A stretch of DNA of 64,000 bases from Clostridia bacterium (GTDB taxonomy: Bacteria > Bacillota > Clostridia > Christensenellales > Borkfalkiaceae): assembly GCA_017522945.1 (NCBI GenBank), contig JAFWXT010000069.1, forward strand, positions 1-64,000. Direction: 5' to 3'. Below, piece after piece: positions 601 through 14,172 of this stretch. Made by a program: the position numbers and the translations under genes. Under the pieces are notes generated by a model. That model was not told the origin of the DNA. It saw only the letters and a list, made by a program, of their open reading frames with translations, and made no database searches. Numbering within the stretch: the stretch's first letter is position 1; each line of letters opens with the position of its first letter.

Positions 601-3600
601 CATAAATATCATCGATTAATCCACCGATTGTTAAATCTGTAAGATGAGCATCCCCAATATAATCGCCGTCAAATAAACCTTCAACAAAATCAGCGATATC
701 TTTAGCAATTTCTTCATCAACTCCAGCAATTACTAAAATGTCTTCAAGAGCATCAACAGTTTCACTAACCAATAAATTAGAGATTCCGTCTTCTATTTTA
801 TGAACGTTAACTTCATCTAATAAATTAGCAACGATTTCAACGATTTGAGAAACTTCTTCAGGAACTTCAAAATTATCCACAACGTCATAAACCGAGGTAA
901 TTACGCCACCCAAAGTTAAAGTTGAAGACATAGCAAGATCTCTTAGCGTTGTATCTTCCAATAAATCGTCAAGAAGAACGCAAACATCTTTAACTACTTG
1001 TTCATTTTCTTCAGGCATAATTGCAACGCCAACAGTTTCGATAGTTGCAATTAAATCATTTACTAAAATATCTAAGAAATCTTCTTGGAAATTAGCAAAA
1101 GTAACGTCATCTAACAAAGTAGTTATCGCGCCAACAACAGTTGGTAAAGGTTCTTCGCCGTAATAGTTATCGATAATATTGTAAACGCCTTCAATAAGAC
1201 CACCTACAGTCATATCTGTAGGCATAAATTCAGGAGCGCTTATTGAACCGCCTAAAACTTCTTCAAGTAAAGCGCATAGTTCATCGATAGTTTGTTTAGT
1301 GTTTTCATCAGTAATAGCTACAGCGCAAATTTCATTTACACTGTTAATTACGTCATCAATTTCAATATTTAAGGTTCCATCTACAAACTCATCGATTACA
1401 ACCTCACCATAAAGTTCTGAAAGTTCAGCAAATAGTTTTTCAACCGTTTTGTTATCTACGTAAATATCAACAATACCGTAAACTTGATCAATAACAGCTG
1501 AAACTTCTAAGCCTGTTTGTAAGCCAAAATCACCCAAGCTTCCAGCTAATACGTCGGTCAATAAATCACCAACTTTTTCTACTAATTCTTCATTGCCAGG
1601 AACTAATATATTAGCGATTGAGCAAATGCTTTCAGTAATAGAGTCAACAGATAATTCATTATCAATTTGTGGGTTATTTAAATCGCCAATAAGTAAATTC
1701 GTCAATAATTCGTTAAGCTCATCAACCAATTGTTCGTTGCCTGGAGCTACGATTTTAACGATTTCATTTACAGTTTCTACGATAGCGTCAAGTTCTAATG
1801 CAGTTAAATCGTCGGCAAGATTTTCAACCTCAACCTTATCGAATAAACCGGCAACTTCTTCAACGATTGCACCAACATTTTCATCTTCATAGAAAACTTC
1901 AACTACAGAATATACATCTCTTAAAAGTTCGCCAGCGGTTAATTTTTCAGTAAGTTTTACGTCGCTTACAGTTCCGTCAAGCGTTTCAGTTAAAAGTTTA
2001 GATACTTCGGTTATAACTTCCTCATTGCCTGGAGCTGCAAGGTTTACAACGTCACAAATTTGCTCAACAACGAAGTCAATTTGCAAGCCACCAAAATCAT
2101 TTGCAAAATCGGTAAGAGTTACGTCGTTAAATAGTGTTGCAACTTCTTCAACGATTGCGCCAACCTTTTCATCTTGATAGAAATCATCAACAATTGAGTA
2201 AAGGTCTGTTATAAGTTCGCCAACAGTAACTTCTTCACTAACTTGAACGTCACTTAAAGGTCCACTAAGTACGTCGGCAAGAAGAGCAACCACGTCGCTT
2301 ACGACCTCAGGTTTAATTGTTTCTTCAAGACCGGCAATTTCAGCTAATGCGTTAACACCGGCTTCAAAAACTTCAAGAACGTAATCTACTTCATAGCTTA
2401 AAATCTTATCGCCACCGTTTGCTAAATCTTGAACGATCAATAAAACCGAACTATTTAAAAGCTCGCTCATAGCATGGCTTTCATCTTCAGCCCATATATA
2501 TTTTTGGCCAATTCTATCAAAGTCTTCTAATTCTTTATCTAACTTAACTAAGCCAATTTCTAAAACGTCACCAACGCGAACACCAACAATTTCTTCACAA
2601 ACGTCAGCTATCGATTCTTCGTTAACTAAAGCTTCAACAACGTATGCAATCTCAAGATCGAAAAGTTCAGTTAAAGAATTCGAATAAACGTGATTTCCGT
2701 TTTCTGTTTCGCTATAATATTGCTCGTTTTCTGCATCGTATTTAATATCAAGAACTGCCCCGGCAACTTCACCGATGGTAGTTTCTGGGAATAGTGCTTT
2801 TACTATTTGTTCAACCGAGAAATCACTTTCTACTAAGTTGAATATATTGTCAAATGAGAAATCTAAAATTAAAGAAAGGAAAGCATCGTCGCATATCCAT
2901 GCGCCGTTTTCATCCTTTTCAATTGATAAAATATCGCCGATAGCAACGTCACCAAGGGCATTTCTGAACGCTGCAACGATGTTTTCTAAGTTATATTCTT
3001 CAAGCAATAAATCTGCAATGCGAATATTAAATATGCCTGCAAGTAAAGCATTTTCTTCTTCTTTTATGCCAAGCATATCACCTAAAGTGGTATCTCCAAA
3101 TGATTCGTTAAGGTTTGAAATTAACGACTTAATGAAAGTATTAACGTCAAATTCACCACCTTCTTGACCTGCAAGTAATTTGCTTACTTGTAAGCCACGA
3201 AGCCCGTCGATTGCAGGAATAGCACCTTCTTTTATGCCAAGCATATCCAAAATCATACCAACTTCAAGTTTGCCGATAAGCTTATCAACTAACCCGATTA
3301 AATCGCCATGATTTTCAATAATAGCCGAGATATCAAGGTTGGCAACGATTTGCATAAGTTCAGGCGCTGGGTTACCATCTTTATCAACCCACTTTTCATC
3401 ACCATCTTCGTCGGTGTAGCCAAGCAAATATCCAAGCTCGACATTAGGAAGAAGTTTGGTGTATAAGAAATCGTATCCGCCTTCAGAGTTTTTAACGAAC
3501 AAGTCGGCAAGAGTAGTACCGCCAAGAACCTTTGAGCGAAGTTCAACTTCTTCAAGAAGGTCGGGCGCTACGGTTGCAACCACGTCACATAGGATTTCTT

Positions 3601-4405
3601 CTAAAGGCATAGCCGCAATAGAACTTAACGAACCTTCCATAAGTTCGTTCATAACGTCAAACTCGCCGTAAACCATTTCAGCAATAACGTCAAGAGAAAC
3701 GTTGCCTAATAGATTTAAAACGCGAAGGCTTTTCGCCTTTTCAGTTTTTTGAAGTTCATATGTATATTCGTGAGTTTCAGGGCTATAAACCGATTCAAAG
3801 TATTCAGGAAGTAAAGCGCCTAACTTTAACGACTTTAATGCTTTGATAAGACCAAGTTCTTGGGTTCTTTCATCAGTTTGGATCAATTCGTTAAGAGTGT
3901 AGTCACCAAGTTTTTCCTGCGCTTCTCTTGAAAGAATTTGGTTTAAATCCTTAGGGCCGTCTGCCGTTTTTAATAAACTTGGGAGCAACGGATACAAAGC
4001 CCTAACTTTGATACTATCAAGTAAAGCTTCAAAACCGCCGTCACCGATACTAAAAATGGAAATTCCCATTAAAGCGGCCCAATCTTTCCCGCTCTTATCA
4101 ACACCGCTTAAGTCAAAACCTGCAGTTTTTAAAAGACTTTCAACGTCTAATCCGTATTCAGCTTCTAAACGAGAAAGTGTGTAATCATCAGGATTTTTCA
4201 TTGCGTTTTGCAATAAAAGCAACAAATCCTCAATCGATTGATCGTTAATATCGCCTAAAGCAGGATCTTGCTCTGTAACGATACCAACAGGTTTAATGTT
4301 CTTATACGCCCAGAACCCTGCAGTGACTGCTACGCCAAGAGGTGCTGCGATCGTAAAGATCATTCCGAGTACAAATGCCAGTACTCTTCTAAAAAGATTT
4401 CCCAT
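1..4405 (-). CDS. Giant membrane-anchored or exported repeat protein, C-terminus outside window
   Basis: I do not recognise the family. The ATG at 4405 has an AGGAG site 8 nt upstream, and the frame stays open to the window edge, about 1,468 codons. Residues about 5-30 are hydrophobic (RVLAFVLGMIFTIAAPLG) behind two arginines, fitting a signal anchor or an uncleaved signal peptide. The rest is acidic and rich in Leu, Val and Ile, with no cysteine cluster or catalytic motif that I can see. From about residue 500 it settles into a degenerate unit of about 100 residues. Recurrent pieces are LTIGDLIDSVYG, VDAVSGLLEDVTIGE, IETSDVIDAV and AGLLDTLLADGS. The two units nearest the edge are almost identical. 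A long extracellular helical-repeat stalk or adhesin is the simplest guess; function is unknown. Confidence 0.85.
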   Translation of the reverse strand, partial: MGNLFRRVLAFVLGMIFTIAAPLGVAVTAGFWAYKNIKPVGIVTEQDPALGDINDQSIEDLLLLLQNAMKNPDDYTLSRLEAEYGLDVESLLKTAGFDLSGVDKSGKDWAALMGISIFSIGDGGFEALLDSIKVRALYPLLPSLLKTADGPKDLNQILSREAQEKLGDYTLNELIQTDERTQELGLIKALKSLKLGALLPEYFESVYSPETHEYTYELQKTEKAKSLRVLNLLGNVSLDVIAEMVYGEFDVMNELMEGSLSSIAAMPLEEILCDVVATVAPDLLEEVELRSKVLGGTTLADLFVKNSEGGYDFLYTKLLPNVELGYLLGYTDEDGDEKWVDKDGNPAPELMQIVANLDISAIIENHGDLIGLVDKLIGKLEVGMILDMLGIKEGAIPAIDGLRGLQVSKLLAGQEGGEFDVNTFIKSLISNLNESFGDTTLGDMLGIKEEENALLAGIFNIRIADLLLEEYNLENIVAAFRNALGDVAIGDILSIEKDENGAWICDDAFLSLILDFSFDNIFNLVESDFSVEQIVKALFPETTIGEVAGAVLDIKYDAENEQYYSETENGNHVYSNSLTELFDLEIAYVVEALVNEESIADVCEEIVGVRVGDVLEIGLVKLDKELEDFDRIGQKYIWAEDESHAMSELLNSSVLLIVQDLANGGDKILSYEVDYVLEVFEAGVNALAEIAGLEETIKPEVVSDVVALLADVLSGPLSDVQVSEEVTVGELITDLYSIVDDFYQDEKVGAIVEEVATLFNDVTLTDFANDFGGLQIDFVVEQICDVVNLAAPGNEEVITEVSKLLTETLDGTVSDVKLTEKLTAGELLRDVYSVVEVFYEDENVGAIVEEVAGLFDKVEVENLADDLTALELDAIVETVNEIVKIVAPGNEQLVDELNELLTNLLIGDLNNPQIDNELSVDSITESICSIANILVPGNEELVEKVGDLLTDVLAGSLGDFGLQTGLEVSAVIDQVYGIVDIYVDNKTVEKLFAELSELYGEVVIDEFVDGTLNIEIDDVINSVNEICAVAITDENTKQTIDELCALLEEVLGGSISAPEFMPTDMTVGGLIEGVYNIIDNYYGEEPLPTVVGAITTLLDDVTFANFQEDFLDILVNDLIATIETVGVAIMPEENEQVVKDVCVLLDDLLEDTTLRDLAMSSTLTLGGVITSVYDVVDNFEVPEEVSQIVEIVANLLDEVNVHKIEDGISNLLVSETVDALEDILVIAGVDEEIAKDIADFVEGLFDGDYIGDAHLTDLTIGGLIDDIYVIAENFVEDEDGTISTIVDAVSGLLEDVTIGENTVDELLEIETSDVIDAVTEILVAVIPENEELIEDVAGLLDTLLADGSIGEVGLEENLTIGDLIDSVYGVVDNFVEDEDGTISTIVDAVSGLLEDVTIGENTAQELLEIETSDVIDAVEEILVAVIPEEQELIEDVAGLLDTLLADGSIGEVGLEENLTIGDLIDSVY

Positions 4406-5204
4406 ATGTCATCTCCTTGAATGAATTTGACCGCTATGCCTAAAGGGCATAATACGGCCTTTTTTAAATGACTGCTATAATTATATAATAATATAACACC
4501 GTTGTCAATAAATAAGCGCGGTTTTCTATAAATAATTAAAATATTTTACAAAACTTTCACAAAAAATTTTCAAAAATTTCACCACCCTTCAATACTGTGG
4601 ATAACATTGTGGACATTTTTTACTGTAAAATTTAAACTCATAAGCAACTTTTACCCAAAAACGAGAAAGAAGGCACGCTCTTTTACTCTCACACAAACCC
4701 TCTTTTTATATCGGTTCTTTTTCAAATTATCATAGATAATTTTAAGCACAATGCTTATTCTCCTTAGAAAAAGGCTTAAAAATCTATAAATTTACAGCAC
4801 CTTAAAACCATATATGATTGCGTAAAAATCTTGTAAAAATGTTGATATAGTTATGCACAATTTCACATTTTTGATTGTGAGTTTTAAAGATTTTATCTGA
4901 ATTTTTATCAATTTTCGCTATTTTTTACTAAATTCCAACAAGGTTTTTTTAGGTCTTTGTTTTAGTGTTTTTTTAGCCTAATTTTTCACTAATTTAAAGT
5001 AAAAATTTATCATTTTTCACTGCACATAGCCATTTTTTTAAGATGTAGTTTATTTTTTTTAGCCACTTTTACTACAAACCAAAATTTACTTGGATTTTCT
5101 TTTATCCGTTCACACGTTCATAATCGTTCATCGATTATTTCAAACGTAAAGCAATAAAAACGCAAAACGCTCGTTTATCACCTTATAGGGTAACTTTTGA
5201 ACAA
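4406..5204. other. AT-rich intergenic region with DnaA-box-like 9-mers
   Basis: This 800-base spacer has no supportable gene. It is very AT-rich. It holds a perfect DnaA-box 9-mer (TGTGGATAA, 4596-4604), a near match 12 bases on (TGTGGACAT, 4608-4616) and a TTATGCACA variant (4851-4859). A small inverted repeat (GCCTAAAGGGC, 4438-4448) lies just upstream of the giant repeat gene. A minus-strand copy of the interspersed CCCTATAAGG element sits at about 5168-5194. The promoter of the giant repeat gene must be in the right-hand part, but I cannot pick a convincing pair of boxes. Confidence 0.6.
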
Positions 5205-6440: not shown

Positions 6441-9224
6441 TTATTTTTTGCGTTTTCTATCGATAATCACACTAGCCACAGCAAGCGCAATTATTCCCAT
6501 TGAACCAAAATCAATAGAGGATTTACAACCCTTTTTCTCGGCAACAATAGGTGAAATTGTTGCTTTTTGAGTTTCACCGCAATGAATACAAGTTCTTGTT
6601 TTTTCACCTGCTTCACTTGTTGTTGGTTCTTTAGTTGTTACCCATTCACCGTATTCGTGGTTGCATTTAGGTTGTTCTTCACCGCCACCTTGATTGCCTT
6701 CGTTGCCAGTATTTCCGCCTTCGTTACCGCCTTCGTTTCCACCTTCATTGCCACCTTCATTGCCACTGCCTACAGCATAGAATTTAGCATAGAATGGATC
6801 GTCGGCAACCTTACAAGGTCCTATAGAAGTGTAATTTTTATCATTTCTTGTTCCAAGTAAATAATCAACACCATCAACGCTTGTGATTACTGTTTGTTTT
6901 TCAGTATTATAAGTATAAACTGTTGAAGCAGTTGTTTCATAAACGGCATTTACGTGAGTTCCGCTTACAACACAGTTGATGTAATTCTTTACTCCATTTA
7001 TCATAGCGTATAAATAATATCCGCCGTTTGTATTTTCAAGATATACGTCAAGCGCTGCAGATGAATCGGCTGTTGTTGCGAGGTAATAAGTAGAGTGCAT
7101 ACCACCTGCCAAATAATAAACGTCAGTTCCTGCCATAGTTTGAATCATGCCAAACTTGTAAGCTACGCCAGCTTGTGGGTTAGCTACAACAGTAAGATCG
7201 CTTGGTTGTTGTTCAGTGCCACCTTGGTTACCGCCTTGTTCGCCAGAGGTTGCGCCACAAACGGTACAAGTTCCATTTTCATAGCTATGACCAGAAGCTG
7301 CAACGATTTGTTGAGCTAATAGAATTTCACCGCAATCTGCGCACTTACTACCAGCTGTTAAACCTGTTTTAGTACAAGTTGGAGCAACGGCTTGTATTTG
7401 TGTTACATTAGTGTGTTCACATTCGCTAGGAAGAACTTCACCGCCACCGCTAGTTTCTTCGCCATAGAAGATAATAGAGTTAATCATACATCTCTTACCA
7501 GATGTAAGAGTAGCAAAAGAAATAGTTTTATTAGTTGTAGTATCAACCTCTATATCGGTATATTCGCCATTGTTTGATGCTGTTGAAATCGTATAAGTAT
7601 CGTCGTTAACTTTAACGCTCGTTGTGTTTGCTTTGTGTTGAGCAACCTTTAACACAACCTTAACGATTTCATTTGGCACTGTGAAGCTAAAACTACCAGC
7701 CGCACCGCCCGAGCCTACTTTTAAACAACCGTTACCCTTCGCATCTCGAGAATTTGGGAAAATATTTGATGCTCCAGTAATATTTAAAGTATAACCGCCT
7801 ACTGTTTCAACATAAGAAGTTGCACTCGTGCCATTGTCGTAATGTGAGCTTGAACCGTCAGCGCCAAGTTCAAACACAACGCCTTCGGTGTTAACGTTAG
7901 CCTTTTGTTCACCGCAAACGCTACAAGATTCACCAATATAGTTGTGACCCGGAGCTTCGATTGTTTCGTTTTTATTTCCACCGCAAACACTACAAGTATA
8001 AGTTCTAACCCCTGCAGTGGTACAAGTAGGTTGAGTAGTTACCGTTCCACTACCAAAAGTATGAGCGGTTTTAGGTATTGGCTGAGTAATGTTTTCGTGG
8101 CAATTCAAGCAAGTAAAGCTTTTTAAGCCTGCAACCGAACAAGTTGGTTGTGTAATTATTGTTTCTTCACTATAACTATGACCTGTTGCTTTGATCGTTT
8201 GCGCGTTAGTTATATTAGCTCCACAATCTAAACATTTAACGCCTGCTTGGTTACCATCTTCGGTACAAGTAGGTGCTTTATAAGCAACGTTTACAGTATT
8301 TTTATGATCACACGCCATTGACATAGAAGGTGTTGTTATACCCTTAGGGATTTCTTCGCCGAACAATAACCAAGCGTATTCTGGATAATCAACGAATACG
8401 TTGCGCGTACCAGTAATAGATTGAACAGCGTCGTTTCTACCCATTTCCCACGTATCAACAGGGTCTTCTGCCATCCATTTTAATAGGGTATCCATATTTT
8501 GCATAACACCGCTTTGTCCCCACATATAACTTGTGTTACCCCAGCGTGTATAAACGTAAAGCACAATTCTCGCGCAGTCACCGCGAACGTTTTGCCCTTC
8601 ACAGTTTGGATCGTAATAACTCCCGCCGTCACCGTAAGCTGTATTACCGCGTGAGCTATTTTCACTTGTAGCGGTAGGGCGTAACATCATAATATCGTTT
8701 TCGTCTTGTCCGCCAAGCCCCTTACTGTTAGGCCAAGTATGTTCTCTATTCCAAGAAGGACTACTGCCCCACCCTCCGTTTAAAGAAGTTGCAGAATAAA
8801 AAGAAGATATTTTCGAGTAATCGCTATCAACGCAGTCGGTATATTTATATAAGTCTTTTGTTGCATCATAAGACGTTTTATAGCTATGCTTACTCGACAT
8901 TAAAGTCTTTAGCGAAGAATATAACGCACTGCTTGAAGCATTTGATTGAGAAGTTCCACCCGATAAATTTTTCATCGTTGAATAAACGTAGCTACCAGTG
9001 TAAAAATTTTGGGCATGGGTTGAAAGGAAGGTTGCCTTTTCATCTCTTACCCCCCAGTTTACTACATAATTACCAACCTTAACGTATTCAACGTCTTCAG
9101 CCTTTGTATAACCAGTTGGAGTTGTTGGTGTTTTAGCAGCGTAAACGCTTGTAATGCCAACGGTTGGAAGAAGTAGAGAGCAAATTAAAGCAAATGCTAC
9201 GATAATTCTTTTAAATGACTTCAT
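6441..9224 (-). CDS. Secreted endonuclease I-family nuclease with Cys-rich repeats and membrane tail
   Basis: Extracellular DNA/RNA-degrading enzyme of the bacterial endonuclease I family. A signal peptide ending near VYAA (residue ~30) is followed by the nuclease domain (residues ~50-295), with the hallmark NREHTWPNSKGLGG, then DIMMLRPT and SRGNTAYG. After it come about seven Cys/His-containing units of about 35 residues (for example CDHKN, APTCTEDG, KCLDCGAN). They are split by a beta-rich region (about 440-590) and a second globular part (about 670-820). A Gly/Asn/Glu linker made of GNEG repeats precedes the end. The C-terminus is KKGCKSS, a hydrophobic stretch and DRKRKK, which looks like a cell-envelope retention tail. 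Start ATG has GAGG 4-5 bases upstream. Probable role: nutrient scavenging from extracellular nucleic acid. Confidence 0.88.
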   Translation of the reverse strand: MKSFKRIIVAFALICSLLLPTVGITSVYAAKTPTTPTGYTKAEDVEYVKVGNYVVNWGVRDEKATFLSTHAQNFYTGSYVYSTMKNLSGGTSQSNASSSALYSSLKTLMSSKHSYKTSYDATKDLYKYTDCVDSDYSKISSFYSATSLNGGWGSSPSWNREHTWPNSKGLGGQDENDIMMLRPTATSENSSRGNTAYGDGGSYYDPNCEGQNVRGDCARIVLYVYTRWGNTSYMWGQSGVMQNMDTLLKWMAEDPVDTWEMGRNDAVQSITGTRNVFVDYPEYAWLLFGEEIPKGITTPSMSMACDHKNTVNVAYKAPTCTEDGNQAGVKCLDCGANITNAQTIKATGHSYSEETIITQPTCSVAGLKSFTCLNCHENITQPIPKTAHTFGSGTVTTQPTCTTAGVRTYTCSVCGGNKNETIEAPGHNYIGESCSVCGEQKANVNTEGVVFELGADGSSSHYDNGTSATSYVETVGGYTLNITGASNIFPNSRDAKGNGCLKVGSGGAAGSFSFTVPNEIVKVVLKVAQHKANTTSVKVNDDTYTISTASNNGEYTDIEVDTTTNKTISFATLTSGKRCMINSIIFYGEETSGGGEVLPSECEHTNVTQIQAVAPTCTKTGLTAGSKCADCGEILLAQQIVAASGHSYENGTCTVCGATSGEQGGNQGGTEQQPSDLTVVANPQAGVAYKFGMIQTMAGTDVYYLAGGMHSTYYLATTADSSAALDVYLENTNGGYYLYAMINGVKNYINCVVSGTHVNAVYETTASTVYTYNTEKQTVITSVDGVDYLLGTRNDKNYTSIGPCKVADDPFYAKFYAVGSGNEGGNEGGNEGGNEGGNTGNEGNQGGGEEQPKCNHEYGEWVTTKEPTTSEAGEKTRTCIHCGETQKATISPIVAEKKGCKSSIDFGSMGIIALAVASVIIDRKRKK

Positions 9225-10461: not shown

Positions 10462-10538
<77 letters not shown>

Positions 10539-10574
10539 GTTTTTTCGCTTTCTTTTATAAAAAAGACTGCATAT

Positions 10575-10651
10575 GGCGGCGTAGCTTAGCTGGTTATAGC
10601 GGCCGGTTCATACCCGGCAGGTCGTTGGTTCGAATCTGACCGCCGCTACCA
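10575..10651 (+). tRNA. tRNA-Met (CAT), elongator type
   Basis: 77-nt cloverleaf with encoded CCA and anticodon loop TTCATAC. The acceptor stem GGCGGCG with CGCCGCT resembles elongator tRNA-Met rather than the CAU-reading tRNA-Ile, but that alternative is not excluded. Confidence 0.92.
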
Positions 10652-10675
10652 TTTTTCGGTATGAACAAACAACAG

Positions 10676-10692
10676 TTCGGCATCATGCCGAA
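10676..10692. repeat. Perfect palindrome between tRNA-Met and tRNA-Glu
   Basis: TTCGGCATCATGCCGAA forms an 8-bp-arm hairpin, followed by A-rich sequence. It could be a processing hairpin in the tRNA precursor or a spacer relic. Confidence 0.6.
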
Positions 10693-10699
10693 AAATATC

Positions 10700-10774
10700 G
10701 GCCCCTTGGTCAAGCGGTCAAGACATCGCCCTTTCACGGCGGTAACACGAGTTCGAGTCTCGTAGGGGTCACCA
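10700..10774 (+). tRNA. tRNA-Glu (TTC)
   Basis: 75-nt cloverleaf, acceptor GGCCCCT paired with AGGGGTC, anticodon loop CTTTCAC and encoded CCA. Confidence 0.95.
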
Positions 10775-10814: not shown

Positions 10815-10830
10815 ATCAAAACCATAGGTT

Positions 10831-10935
10831 TTGTATATCATCACGCCCTAGCGTGCATCTCATCAACCCTTTGGCTGTATATCATCAAGGGCAACTCACC
10901 CCTATATATCATCACGCTTTAGCGTGGATGGCTTT
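10831..10935. repeat. Interspersed TATATCATCA hairpin repeats
   Basis: Short palindromes (CACGCCCTAGCGTG, CACGCTTTAGCGTG and a CCCTTTGG/CAAGGG pair) are each joined by TATATCATCA or CTCATCA. Three units occur in about 105 bases. A more GC-rich stretch follows (about 10995-11055), unlike the AT-rich DNA to its right. No coding gene is credible between 10815 and 11059. Confidence 0.7.
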
Positions 10936-11059
10936 TTTCGAGTGGCTTTATTTACCGTTTTCGTTTAGTTGTGTTTTAGGAGTGTGCTTATTTCGGGGAC
11001 GCGAAAGCGAGCCGACTCGTATCAAGACAAGCGCACGCGTTAGTGCCAAAAGTTAAAAA

Positions 11060-12829
11060 TTAACCTAAAATATTTAATCTATCAACTGCCATATTAAAGT
11101 ATGTTTTATCCAGTTCAATGCCTATAAATTTTCTGCCTAATTGTATAGATGCTAATCCTGTAGAACCACTACCCATAAATGGGTCAATAATTAAATCTTT
11201 CTTGTTTGTATGTGTTTGTATAAGTGCTTGCATCAATTTTAAGCTTTTTTGTGTAGGGTGTGGAACTTTTTCTGCCCCTGCAACAGTTGGTGTTTCAAAC
11301 AAACTTCGCATATAAGGTTTGTTTTTATCCTTATTAAACGTCCATTTAGAACCTTTTTTTACAGCCCAGATAGCAAACTCCATATCTTGCACATAACGTC
11401 TTTCAATATTTCTTGGCATTGGGTTTGTTTTTTTCCACACAATAATATCTTTTACTTCCATATTATTTTCTTCCATAGTTTTAATAATAAAACTCATATA
11501 TCTATAGGAGCAAAAAACAATCATTGAGCCATTTTTATCCAAGATTTTCTCATATTTAGCAATCCAAGAAAACAAGTCAAAATCTTTATCCCACTCGCCA
11601 AAATCTACACCTTGACGTGGGTTTTTTAATGTGTTAAAATTATTTTCTTTTGAGATATTATATGGTGGGTCAGTAATAATATGATTTACTTTAATATTAT
11701 TTTTAATAAGTTCGTCTATAATTGTGTAAGCATTTCCTTGATATAATGTATATTTTTCAGTTTCTATTATATCATTATTTAACTCTTCAAAAATTTGATT
11801 TCCAACTGCTTTTGCTAATAATGGTGGAACAGCATTTCCTATTTGCTTGCATACAGCGACTTTAGAACCATAAAAATAAAAATCATCATTAAAACTTTGT
11901 ATTCTTGCCGCCTCACGTGGAGTTATTGCTCTATGTAAAAATGGGTGAGAGTTTTTACCATTTGACGGGGTATCAAATCTTGTATCAATTGTAGGGCTAA
12001 TTTCATCCCATACTAAACGCGACCAAGTCGTTGAAAATTTTTGCTTGCCTATAAGATTTTTAGGTAGATATTCTTTGCCTTTTTCAGCAGGAATAAGTTT
12101 CAATTTCTCAATTGCAACCTTTGAGTGTTCGGAAGCCTTATGATATTGTAATTTTTTTCCACGTAATAATTTTTGATAGTCACTATTGGCAGGATTTCTA
12201 TATTCTGTTAAAATTTCACCCTCTCCACTTTCAAGATAAGCAAGGTCGCTTATAGCATCTCTTACCGATTGTGAACTGTCTAAAGGATTTGGAAAATTTA
12301 TAAATTTAGTTTTACAAGCAATAAAAAAGGCTCTTTCTCTACTTTGTGGCACACCATAGTTTTTTGCATTTAATACACCATAGTTTACTATATAACCAAG
12401 GTCTTTGATTTCTTTTAAGATTTCATCTCTAAAGAAATGGTTGCTTGAATTAAGAATATTTTTTACATTTTCAATGATAAAAACAAATGGTTGTAGTTCT
12501 TTAACGATATTTAAATATTCCTTAAAAAGGAAATTTCTTTTATCGTTTAATCCTAAATTTTTACCTTTTAGGCTAAAACCTTGGCAAGGTGGACCTCCGA
12601 TAATCATATTAACTTTTCTTTCTTTTGAAATAGAAATAACCTTGCGTTTAATATCTTCATCTATTATATCACCACAAATAGCATAGGCATTAGGAAAATT
12701 TGCAGAAAAGGTTTTTATTGCATTATTATCAAAGTCCAAACCAACTTGCGTTGAAAAAGATTTGTTCATCTCTAACCCAGATGAAAAACCACCAGCCCCA
12801 CAAAATAAGTCCAAAATTCTAAATTCCAT
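11060..12829 (-). CDS. Double-headed DNA methyltransferase: m5C domain fused to N6-adenine/N4-cytosine domain
   Basis: Modification half of a type II restriction system. Residues 1-~345 are a complete C5-cytosine methyltransferase: DLFCGAGGFSSG (AdoMet loop), GGPPCQGFS near residue 77 with the catalytic Cys, ENVKN, and QIGNAVPP near 327. Residues ~350-589 are a second, separate amino-methyltransferase with the order DPPYNIS (near 385) then DPFMGSGSTG (near 548), which is the beta-type arrangement. Each head probably methylates one strand of an asymmetric site. ATG 12829 has AGGAG 7 bases upstream. It is divergent from an HNH nuclease across 122 bases. The region is visibly more AT-rich than its neighbours, which suggests transfer. 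Confidence 0.93.
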   Translation of the reverse strand: MEFRILDLFCGAGGFSSGLEMNKSFSTQVGLDFDNNAIKTFSANFPNAYAICGDIIDEDIKRKVISISKERKVNMIIGGPPCQGFSLKGKNLGLNDKRNFLFKEYLNIVKELQPFVFIIENVKNILNSSNHFFRDEILKEIKDLGYIVNYGVLNAKNYGVPQSRERAFFIACKTKFINFPNPLDSSQSVRDAISDLAYLESGEGEILTEYRNPANSDYQKLLRGKKLQYHKASEHSKVAIEKLKLIPAEKGKEYLPKNLIGKQKFSTTWSRLVWDEISPTIDTRFDTPSNGKNSHPFLHRAITPREAARIQSFNDDFYFYGSKVAVCKQIGNAVPPLLAKAVGNQIFEELNNDIIETEKYTLYQGNAYTIIDELIKNNIKVNHIITDPPYNISKENNFNTLKNPRQGVDFGEWDKDFDLFSWIAKYEKILDKNGSMIVFCSYRYMSFIIKTMEENNMEVKDIIVWKKTNPMPRNIERRYVQDMEFAIWAVKKGSKWTFNKDKNKPYMRSLFETPTVAGAEKVPHPTQKSLKLMQALIQTHTNKKDLIIDPFMGSGSTGLASIQLGRKFIGIELDKTYFNMAVDRLNILG

Positions 12830-12844
12830 AACAAACTCCTTGTG

Positions 12845-12869
12845 TGAGGGAAGTTATTTTTGTCCCTCA
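12845..12869. promoter_or_regulatory. Inverted repeat in the methyltransferase leader
   Basis: TGAGGGA and TCCCTCA, a perfect 7-bp inverted repeat around 11 bases, lie just upstream of the AGGAG site of the methyltransferase. It is a candidate operator or leader hairpin controlling methyltransferase expression. Confidence 0.5.
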
Positions 12870-12891
12870 ATAAATATGATAGCATAATTAA

Positions 12892-12920
12892 TTGAAAAAA
12901 TCAATGAAATTTGCTATGCT
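12892..12920 (+). promoter_or_regulatory. Promoter of the HNH nuclease gene
   Basis: TTGAAA (12892-12897), a 17-base spacer and TATGCT (12915-12920) in the divergent gap. Confidence 0.65.
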
Positions 12921-12951
12921 TTTATAAGGAAATATAAATTTGGGGGCAAAT

Positions 12952-14172
12952 ATGAAAGTAAGTGAATTTTTACAAAGTAATAACATACCAACTTTTCTAC
13001 TTGGCGCTTTTTATGGTCGATACGAAATTACAAAAGATAATAATTATATTTACACTTATTCTACTTATAGAAATTGGACAAAAATTTATGACAATCAAGA
13101 ATTATGCAATAAGTCTAAAATTAGTTTCTTAAATCAGTTAAATAGTATTTGTCGTCCTTTCAATTTGTGGGTAAAAGGAACAAAACAATTCCCTAAAACT
13201 GACATAGTATTTGCTTTGGAAAATGATTTAAAGTTAACAAAAGATAATTTTTTCAATAGATTAAATAGAAAAATATTAAATGCAGAATTTATAGATAATG
13301 CTAATTTCACAGAAGCGAAAAAAATGTTTATCCGTGGTTTTTCTGAACTTCGAGGAAGTTTGGATAGGAATAGGAATTTGTTAGCAATGGATTATGTTTA
13401 CAATAGCCAACAAGAAGTAAAAAGAGTAAGATTGTTAATTGATTACCTTAATATTCCCACCTACATAGTAAATTATAATTTTAGAGAATTTCAACCTGAA
13501 TACAATAAAGGCAAGAAAAGGGCTACACAACTACGTTATAATATACAGTGGTATGCTACGAATATTGGCTTTATCAACGAATATAGAATTGAAGCATTTA
13601 AGCATAACTTTTATTATACGGATATAAAAAAGGAAGGTTTTGTTACTTATTTTATTTGCCCCTTACCAACAAGAAGTGATAACACAACATTTGAAAGTAG
13701 ATTAGCGTATTATTCAAATAATGTATTAGGCAAAAAATTAACTAAAGCAGATTTTAATAAATTTAGCAAGTTAATCGGCACAGATAAAGGTTCGGATTCG
13801 TTTAAGCGTGATTGGTCTATTGTTAATTACGTTAGATATACAACCCCAGATGTTTGTGTTTGTTGTTGTGATGATTACGATATAAAAGATAGAACACATA
13901 TAGAAGCAAAAACAGGAAGATATCATTTTGAAATACACCATATGATTTCAGTAGGGAAAAATAAAGAGTTGGACGACGTAGATAATTTAGCCAAAATTTG
14001 CCCATCGTGTCACGCAAGTTTAGGAAGAGGAAGTGCTGACGAAAAAACTCAAAAGGAACTTATAATTAAAATCTTTAAACACAAGCCAAACATTTTAGAA
14101 TTTTGTAAAAGTTATTTTGACGAAGAAGGTTTTGAAACAGTAGTTCATAAAGTTTGGGAATCACTTAAATAA
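12952..14172 (+). CDS. HNH restriction endonuclease (partner of the fused methyltransferase)
   Basis: Probable restriction subunit. The C-terminal third carries a Cys-bracketed HNH site: CVCCCDD, then FEIHHMISVG, DNLAKICPSCH, with the IHH pair, the central Asn and the last His all present and Cys pairs for zinc. The N-terminal ~290 residues match nothing I know and are probably the DNA-recognition part. The paired methyltransferase supports a type II system; MnlI is an established HNH type IIS example. I prefer ATG 12952 (406 aa, GGGGG 5 bases upstream); TTG 12940 with AAGGA 9 bases upstream is an alternative. AT-rich like its partner. Confidence 0.82.
   Translation: MKVSEFLQSNNIPTFLLGAFYGRYEITKDNNYIYTYSTYRNWTKIYDNQELCNKSKISFLNQLNSICRPFNLWVKGTKQFPKTDIVFALENDLKLTKDNFFNRLNRKILNAEFIDNANFTEAKKMFIRGFSELRGSLDRNRNLLAMDYVYNSQQEVKRVRLLIDYLNIPTYIVNYNFREFQPEYNKGKKRATQLRYNIQWYATNIGFINEYRIEAFKHNFYYTDIKKEGFVTYFICPLPTRSDNTTFESRLAYYSNNVLGKKLTKADFNKFSKLIGTDKGSDSFKRDWSIVNYVRYTTPDVCVCCCDDYDIKDRTHIEAKTGRYHFEIHHMISVGKNKELDDVDNLAKICPSCHASLGRGSADEKTQKELIIKIFKHKPNILEFCKSYFDEEGFETVVHKVWESLK

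Follow-up and report, generated by a model that had tools for sequence, protein, structure and literature searches.

The nuclease MnlI of Moraxella nonliquefaciens reportedly cuts CCTC 7/6 (Kriukiene et al. 2005). The MnlI methyltransferases are encoded by separate genes. In Helicobacter pylori, M1.HpyAVI methylates GAGG and M2.HpyAVI methylates CCTC; both are reported to be similar to the MnlI methyltransferases, and HpyAVI is without a working MnlI homologue (PMC5173035, PMC3936762, PMC3411764). A 2026 study described a Staphylococcus haemolyticus pair, PDLC03279/PDLC03514, as a Type II system with G-m6A-GG and methylated CCTC, the cytosine mark being called m4C. When its methyltransferase gene was transferred to E. 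coli, MnlI digestion confirmed the modification, MnlI being blocked (PMC13417997). A single protein of this system modifies A on one strand and C on the opposite strand. DCM3 of Metamycoplasma hominis (592 aa) consists of a C5 domain (1-360) and a beta-class domain (361-592) and goes with CCTC methylation, while no 6mA was seen at GAGG (PMC10305163). Both marks were assigned to a single methyltransferase for J7894_00205 of Mycoplasma agalactiae and M.Cal5972II of Carnobacterium (PMC9465063). A fused C5-N6A methyltransferase is also paired with an HNH nuclease in HpyAV (PMC2816704).

We examined a locus with this general design in a 64-kb stretch of DNA from a Clostridia bacterium (the window). 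The pair is not new but belongs to a kind described before in Staphylococcus, mycoplasmas and Helicobacter. We put the probability that it is an MnlI-like Type IIS restriction-modification system, with a fused methyltransferase acting on CCTC/GAGG, at about 0.92. From its sequence the pair is very probably a working system of this type; the exact motif, modified bases, cleavage position and activity we infer. The ORF listing and Pfam place the methyltransferase gene (M) at 11060..12829 on the minus strand (589 aa) and the HNH nuclease gene (R) at 12952..14172 on the plus strand (406 aa). The two genes are divergent and separated by 122 bases, so that the ORFs, strands, coordinates and gap given for 11060-14172 in the initial annotation are borne out.

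M consists of a C5-cytosine methyltransferase (residues ~1-352) followed by a beta-class N6-adenine methyltransferase (~354-587). Pfam DNA_methylase covers residues 3-347 (8e-73) and N6_N4_Mtase covers residues 381-582 (2e-44). The C5 and N6A motifs DLFCGAGG, GGPPCQGFS, ENVKN, QIGNAVPP, DPPYN and DPFMGSGSTG are all present, confirming the earlier claim that a complete m5C and a complete amino-methyltransferase domain are fused in 589 residues. In the adenine head DPPY, at residues 387-390, lies ahead of the AdoMet motif FxGxG, which is the beta-class order; the cysteine of PCQ in the C5 head is C82. The closest solved relative of this head is M1.HpyAVI (5hek, E 8e-90), which is about half identical. 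PADLOC model PDLC03279 matches M with 772 bits over model positions 1-586/587. The C5 domain begins at residue 3, and M lacks an N-terminal helix-turn-helix extension. The predicted target is CCTC for the C5 head and GAGG for the N6A head.

Other arrangements of these heads were seen among the relatives. A fused C5-N6A methyltransferase 59% identical to M is encoded at 2909-4711 of Mycoplasma prophage MW353169, with no recognisable matching nuclease nearby; such a phage-borne orphan could shield against systems of this kind. At 2180-4282 of L. plantarum plasmid p9, a PDLC03297-matching N-terminal domain is fused before a C5 domain that shares 62% identity with the C5 head of M, which shows that this head is reused with other partners. 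The plasmid of L. plantarum LY-78 was left uncounted as an intact fusion, since its adenine head appears frameshifted.

Both window proteins match the two PADLOC models of the S. haemolyticus system essentially over full length, a likeness at the level of the shared models. The cytosine mark of that system was called m4C, whereas all motifs in M indicate a C5 head. HpyAVI and MnlI share C5 and N6A methylation at CCTC/GAGG with the predicted window system, and MnlI also shares an HNH nuclease with it. M1 and M2 of HpyAVI are separate genes with no working nuclease, whereas the window has one fused gene plus R. The likeness of the pair to MnlI is drawn through relatives, namely HpyAVI and the PADLOC pair. 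DCM3 of M. hominis has the same fusion order and size as M, although it was described as an orphan, and J7894_00205 of M. agalactiae is associated with CCTC and GAGG methylation as predicted for M. That the two heads mark an asymmetric site differently on each of its strands, as had been proposed from the sequence, is well supported by the methylomes of homologues (PMC13417997, PMC9465063, PMC10305163) and by CCTC depletion (below), and is already established for the family.

R has two possible starts, the listed TTG at 12940 (410 aa) and an ATG at 12952 (406 aa; MKVSEFL) preceded by GGGGGC. The ATG is preferred because it is common to three relatives. The C-terminal part is an HNH domain (Pfam PF01844, 8.6e-6), and the N-terminal ~280 aa, which belong to no known family, are presumed to form the recognition domain. 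A LAGLIDADG-like recognition domain (FIRGFSELRGSLD) was considered and found to be unsupported by Pfam or PDB profile searches. Structure prediction from four sequences was poor (pLDDT 44). PADLOC model PDLC03514 matches residues 3-392 with 140.6 bits (model 3-375/386). In five aligned sequences H329, H330, N345 and H354 are invariant, as are the cysteine pairs C302/C305 and C350/C353 (two CxxC). The model match and the intact HNH residues uphold the view that this nuclease is the restriction partner of the double-headed methyltransferase. With most of the family members in the comparison R shares just 28-48% identity, and its cut position may therefore differ from theirs.

A restriction system aimed at CCTC/GAGG may leave a footprint in the genome. 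In the window 71 CCTC/GAGG sites were observed against 133 expected from trinucleotides, and a further 188 kb from other contigs of this genome, some of it masked, contains 179 against 327 expected. The pooled ratio is 0.54 (250/460) over 252 kb, part of it masked. Among 120 non-palindromic tetramers, CCTC/GAGG ranks first for depletion in each of the two samples. The ratio is 1.02 and 1.16 in two congeners (G002 and G001), where neither the methyltransferase nor the R model was found. Among hosts of related loci it is 0.44 (rank 1) in Onthoplasma G732, 0.69 in G731 and 0.97, or no depletion, in G730. Depletion also occurs in four family members with no recognisable system, G010 (0.28), G008 (0.45), G031 (0.58) and G027 (0.63), in which no PDLC03514 nuclease was found; as candidate readings, these genomes may have lost such a system or may have a different defence directed at CCTC. 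Since depletion is found in genomes without the system and is absent from G730, which hosts one of the nearest loci (L031), it supports a CCTC target but does not prove it.

M and R have GC contents of 30.3% and 28.5%, compared with a window mean of 36.6%. Equally low values are found in 3.3% (M) and 1.0% (R) of 1.5-kb windows of the region. The pair is thus AT-rich, as initially described, but only mildly so. The tRNA-Glu gene and repeat array said to precede it are also present. ARAGORN places tRNA-Met, tRNA-Met and tRNA-Glu at 10462..10774 on the plus strand, a neighbouring cluster outside the restriction-modification system, and the array consists of three 25-nt copies at 10834-10929, TATATCATCACGC...GCGTGCAT. 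Partial copies of the stretch 10815-11055 occur on other contigs of the genome. Further upstream, an acetyltransferase-like gene precedes the tRNA cluster and is itself directly preceded by a gene (6441-9224, minus strand) for a protein of 927 aa that is predicted to be secreted and has an Endonuclease_1 domain (PF04231) and a C-terminal hydrophobic stretch.

The system is distributed sporadically. A full-length match to the fused methyltransferase was found only in the window genome within 61 relatives, and a full-length match to R in 1/398 genomes of a phylum sample and 1/291 of a class sample. Broad R searches of the phylum (398), the class (291) and the class of locus L033 (391) yielded just two true members, G000 and G732; the other hits were isolated HNH domains and were rejected. 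No R relatives were found in viral contigs and phages. The nearest copies of M, with 81-82% amino acid identity, are in Gastranaerophilales, Clostridia and Onthoplasma assemblies, and two of the nearest relative loci have serine recombinases nearby. Horizontal movement is clear from the sporadic distribution and from closest relatives that lie in other classes and phyla. R lies divergent beside M in loci L031, L032 and L033, as in the window. Between L031 (in G730) and L033 (in G732), which belong to two phyla, the M genes are 98.6% identical in DNA while the adjacent R proteins are only 48% identical; here the nuclease has been replaced beside a constant M.

The same architecture might serve a different asymmetric site, the precedent being the HpyAV/Hin4II group (CCTTC 6/5), whose HNH Type IIS nucleases, with a C5-N6A fusion in HpyAV, share the general design of the window pair. 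The fusions of that group are about 820-856 aa with tandem genes, and M.HpyAV has a gamma-class adenine part, whereas the window has 589 aa, a beta-class adenine head nearest to M1.HpyAVI and divergent genes. Because of the longer fusion and gamma-class head we regard HpyAV as an analogue and not as the family of the window pair. Furthermore, CCTTC is not depleted in the window genome (0.89), in contrast to CCTC, and a target of the HpyAV type is highly improbable. M could also be active beside a dead or silent R, making the locus an orphan epigenetic modifier. The solitary fused methyltransferase of the Mycoplasma prophage and HpyAVI with its missing nuclease activity are precedents for this state. 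Against it, R has its full length and retains all catalytic and cysteine residues, and genomic CCTC depletion indicates a system that cuts DNA and does more than methylate it, so that we consider an orphan very unlikely.

The initial annotation had further proposed an island acquired at the tRNA cluster. Acquisition itself agrees with the sporadic presence, the far-flung relatives, the nearby recombinases in two of them and the lower GC. Insertion at the tRNA was not supported: no integrase ORF is found among the immediate neighbours of M and R, no duplicate of at least 12 bases of the tRNA-Glu 3' end was detected, and flanking direct repeats were limited to an A/T-rich 12-mer. The tRNA cluster is kept in congeners G001 and G002 (91-92% identical) with flanks that differ in each genome, so that no empty site is definable. 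The about two-fold depletion of CCTC argues for long residence, the pair having been gained horizontally and then probably kept long enough for depletion to arise. A recent island integrated at tRNA-Glu is therefore unlikely. We retain a CCTC/GAGG-specific Type IIS system of the MnlI kind as the preferred reading.

The intergenic region contains a dyad made of two predicted target sites in inverted orientation, TGAGG-N15-CCTCA (12845..12869), a candidate autoregulatory operator. It sits between the predicted -10 and the ribosome-binding site of M, the M-strand leader reading TATCAT-ATTTAT-TGAGG-N15-CCTCA-CAC-AAGGAG-...-ATG. A consensus scan and alignment predict the M promoter as TTGATT-17-TATCAT (12876..12904, minus strand), whose -10 lies 6 nt before TGAGG, likewise in the relatives (TATAAT). 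The consensus scan also predicts an R promoter, TTGAAA-17-TATGCT with an extended -10 (12892..12920, plus strand), back to back with the M promoter and overlapping it. In the alignment the dyad is kept in L031, L032 and L033 at identical 19-nt spacing; its columns are invariant in 10/10 cases, compared with 51/114 of the other non-coding columns. As L031 and L033 are near-identical in the intergenic region, this conservation represents three independent lineages. At the local site density two sites within 122 bases have a P of about 0.008. TGAGG-N15-CCTCA occurs once in the whole genome, as does a backwards control pattern. No earlier report of this pair at the start of M was found in the literature searched. 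The dyad may act as an RNA hairpin, which is stable in the centroid; however, its stability is not beyond that of shuffles (z -0.6) and its arms show no covariation.

CfrBI, AhdI and LlaDII have cognate sites in the M promoter region, and the methylation of these sites controls M expression (PMC12707154, PMC3874152). CfrBI has divergent genes, overlapping promoters and a site within an inverted repeat, and the window region is similar. It differs from all three systems in having two Type IIS sites that form a dyad where transcription is predicted to start. Provided that the predicted motif is correct, the conserved dyad places cognate sites at the M promoter as in systems of the CfrBI/LlaDII type. 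By analogy this suggests methylation-dependent autoregulation of M. Since M is without a helix-turn-helix extension, site-based control is the likely route. In each strand of the dyad one arm would carry m6A and the other m5C. We tentatively propose, at somewhat less than even odds, that M doses itself in this way: occupancy or asymmetric methylation of the dyad would repress M and release the overlapping, divergent R promoter, so that cutting would lag behind protection.

The system would then work as follows. M would recognise the 4-bp asymmetric site CCTC/GAGG, its N6A head methylating the A of GAGG and its C5 head one of the cytosines in CCTC on the opposite strand, probably the first C. 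A single polypeptide would thereby re-mark both strands of each replication product. R would bind unmethylated sites, presumably through its N-terminal part, and cut a few bases to the side, while marking by M would spare the cell's own DNA.

What is new here is a further family member, the genome-level footprint, the exchange of the nuclease and the conserved dyad with its hypothetical function. These results extend a known but thinly described class of systems, in which a single polypeptide modifies an asymmetric 4-bp site with two marks of different chemistry, to another bacterial lineage. The module moves across classes and phyla with its nuclease swapped and its methyltransferase almost unchanged, and the conserved dyad offers a concrete, easily testable model of how methylation could time the action of a Type IIS system.
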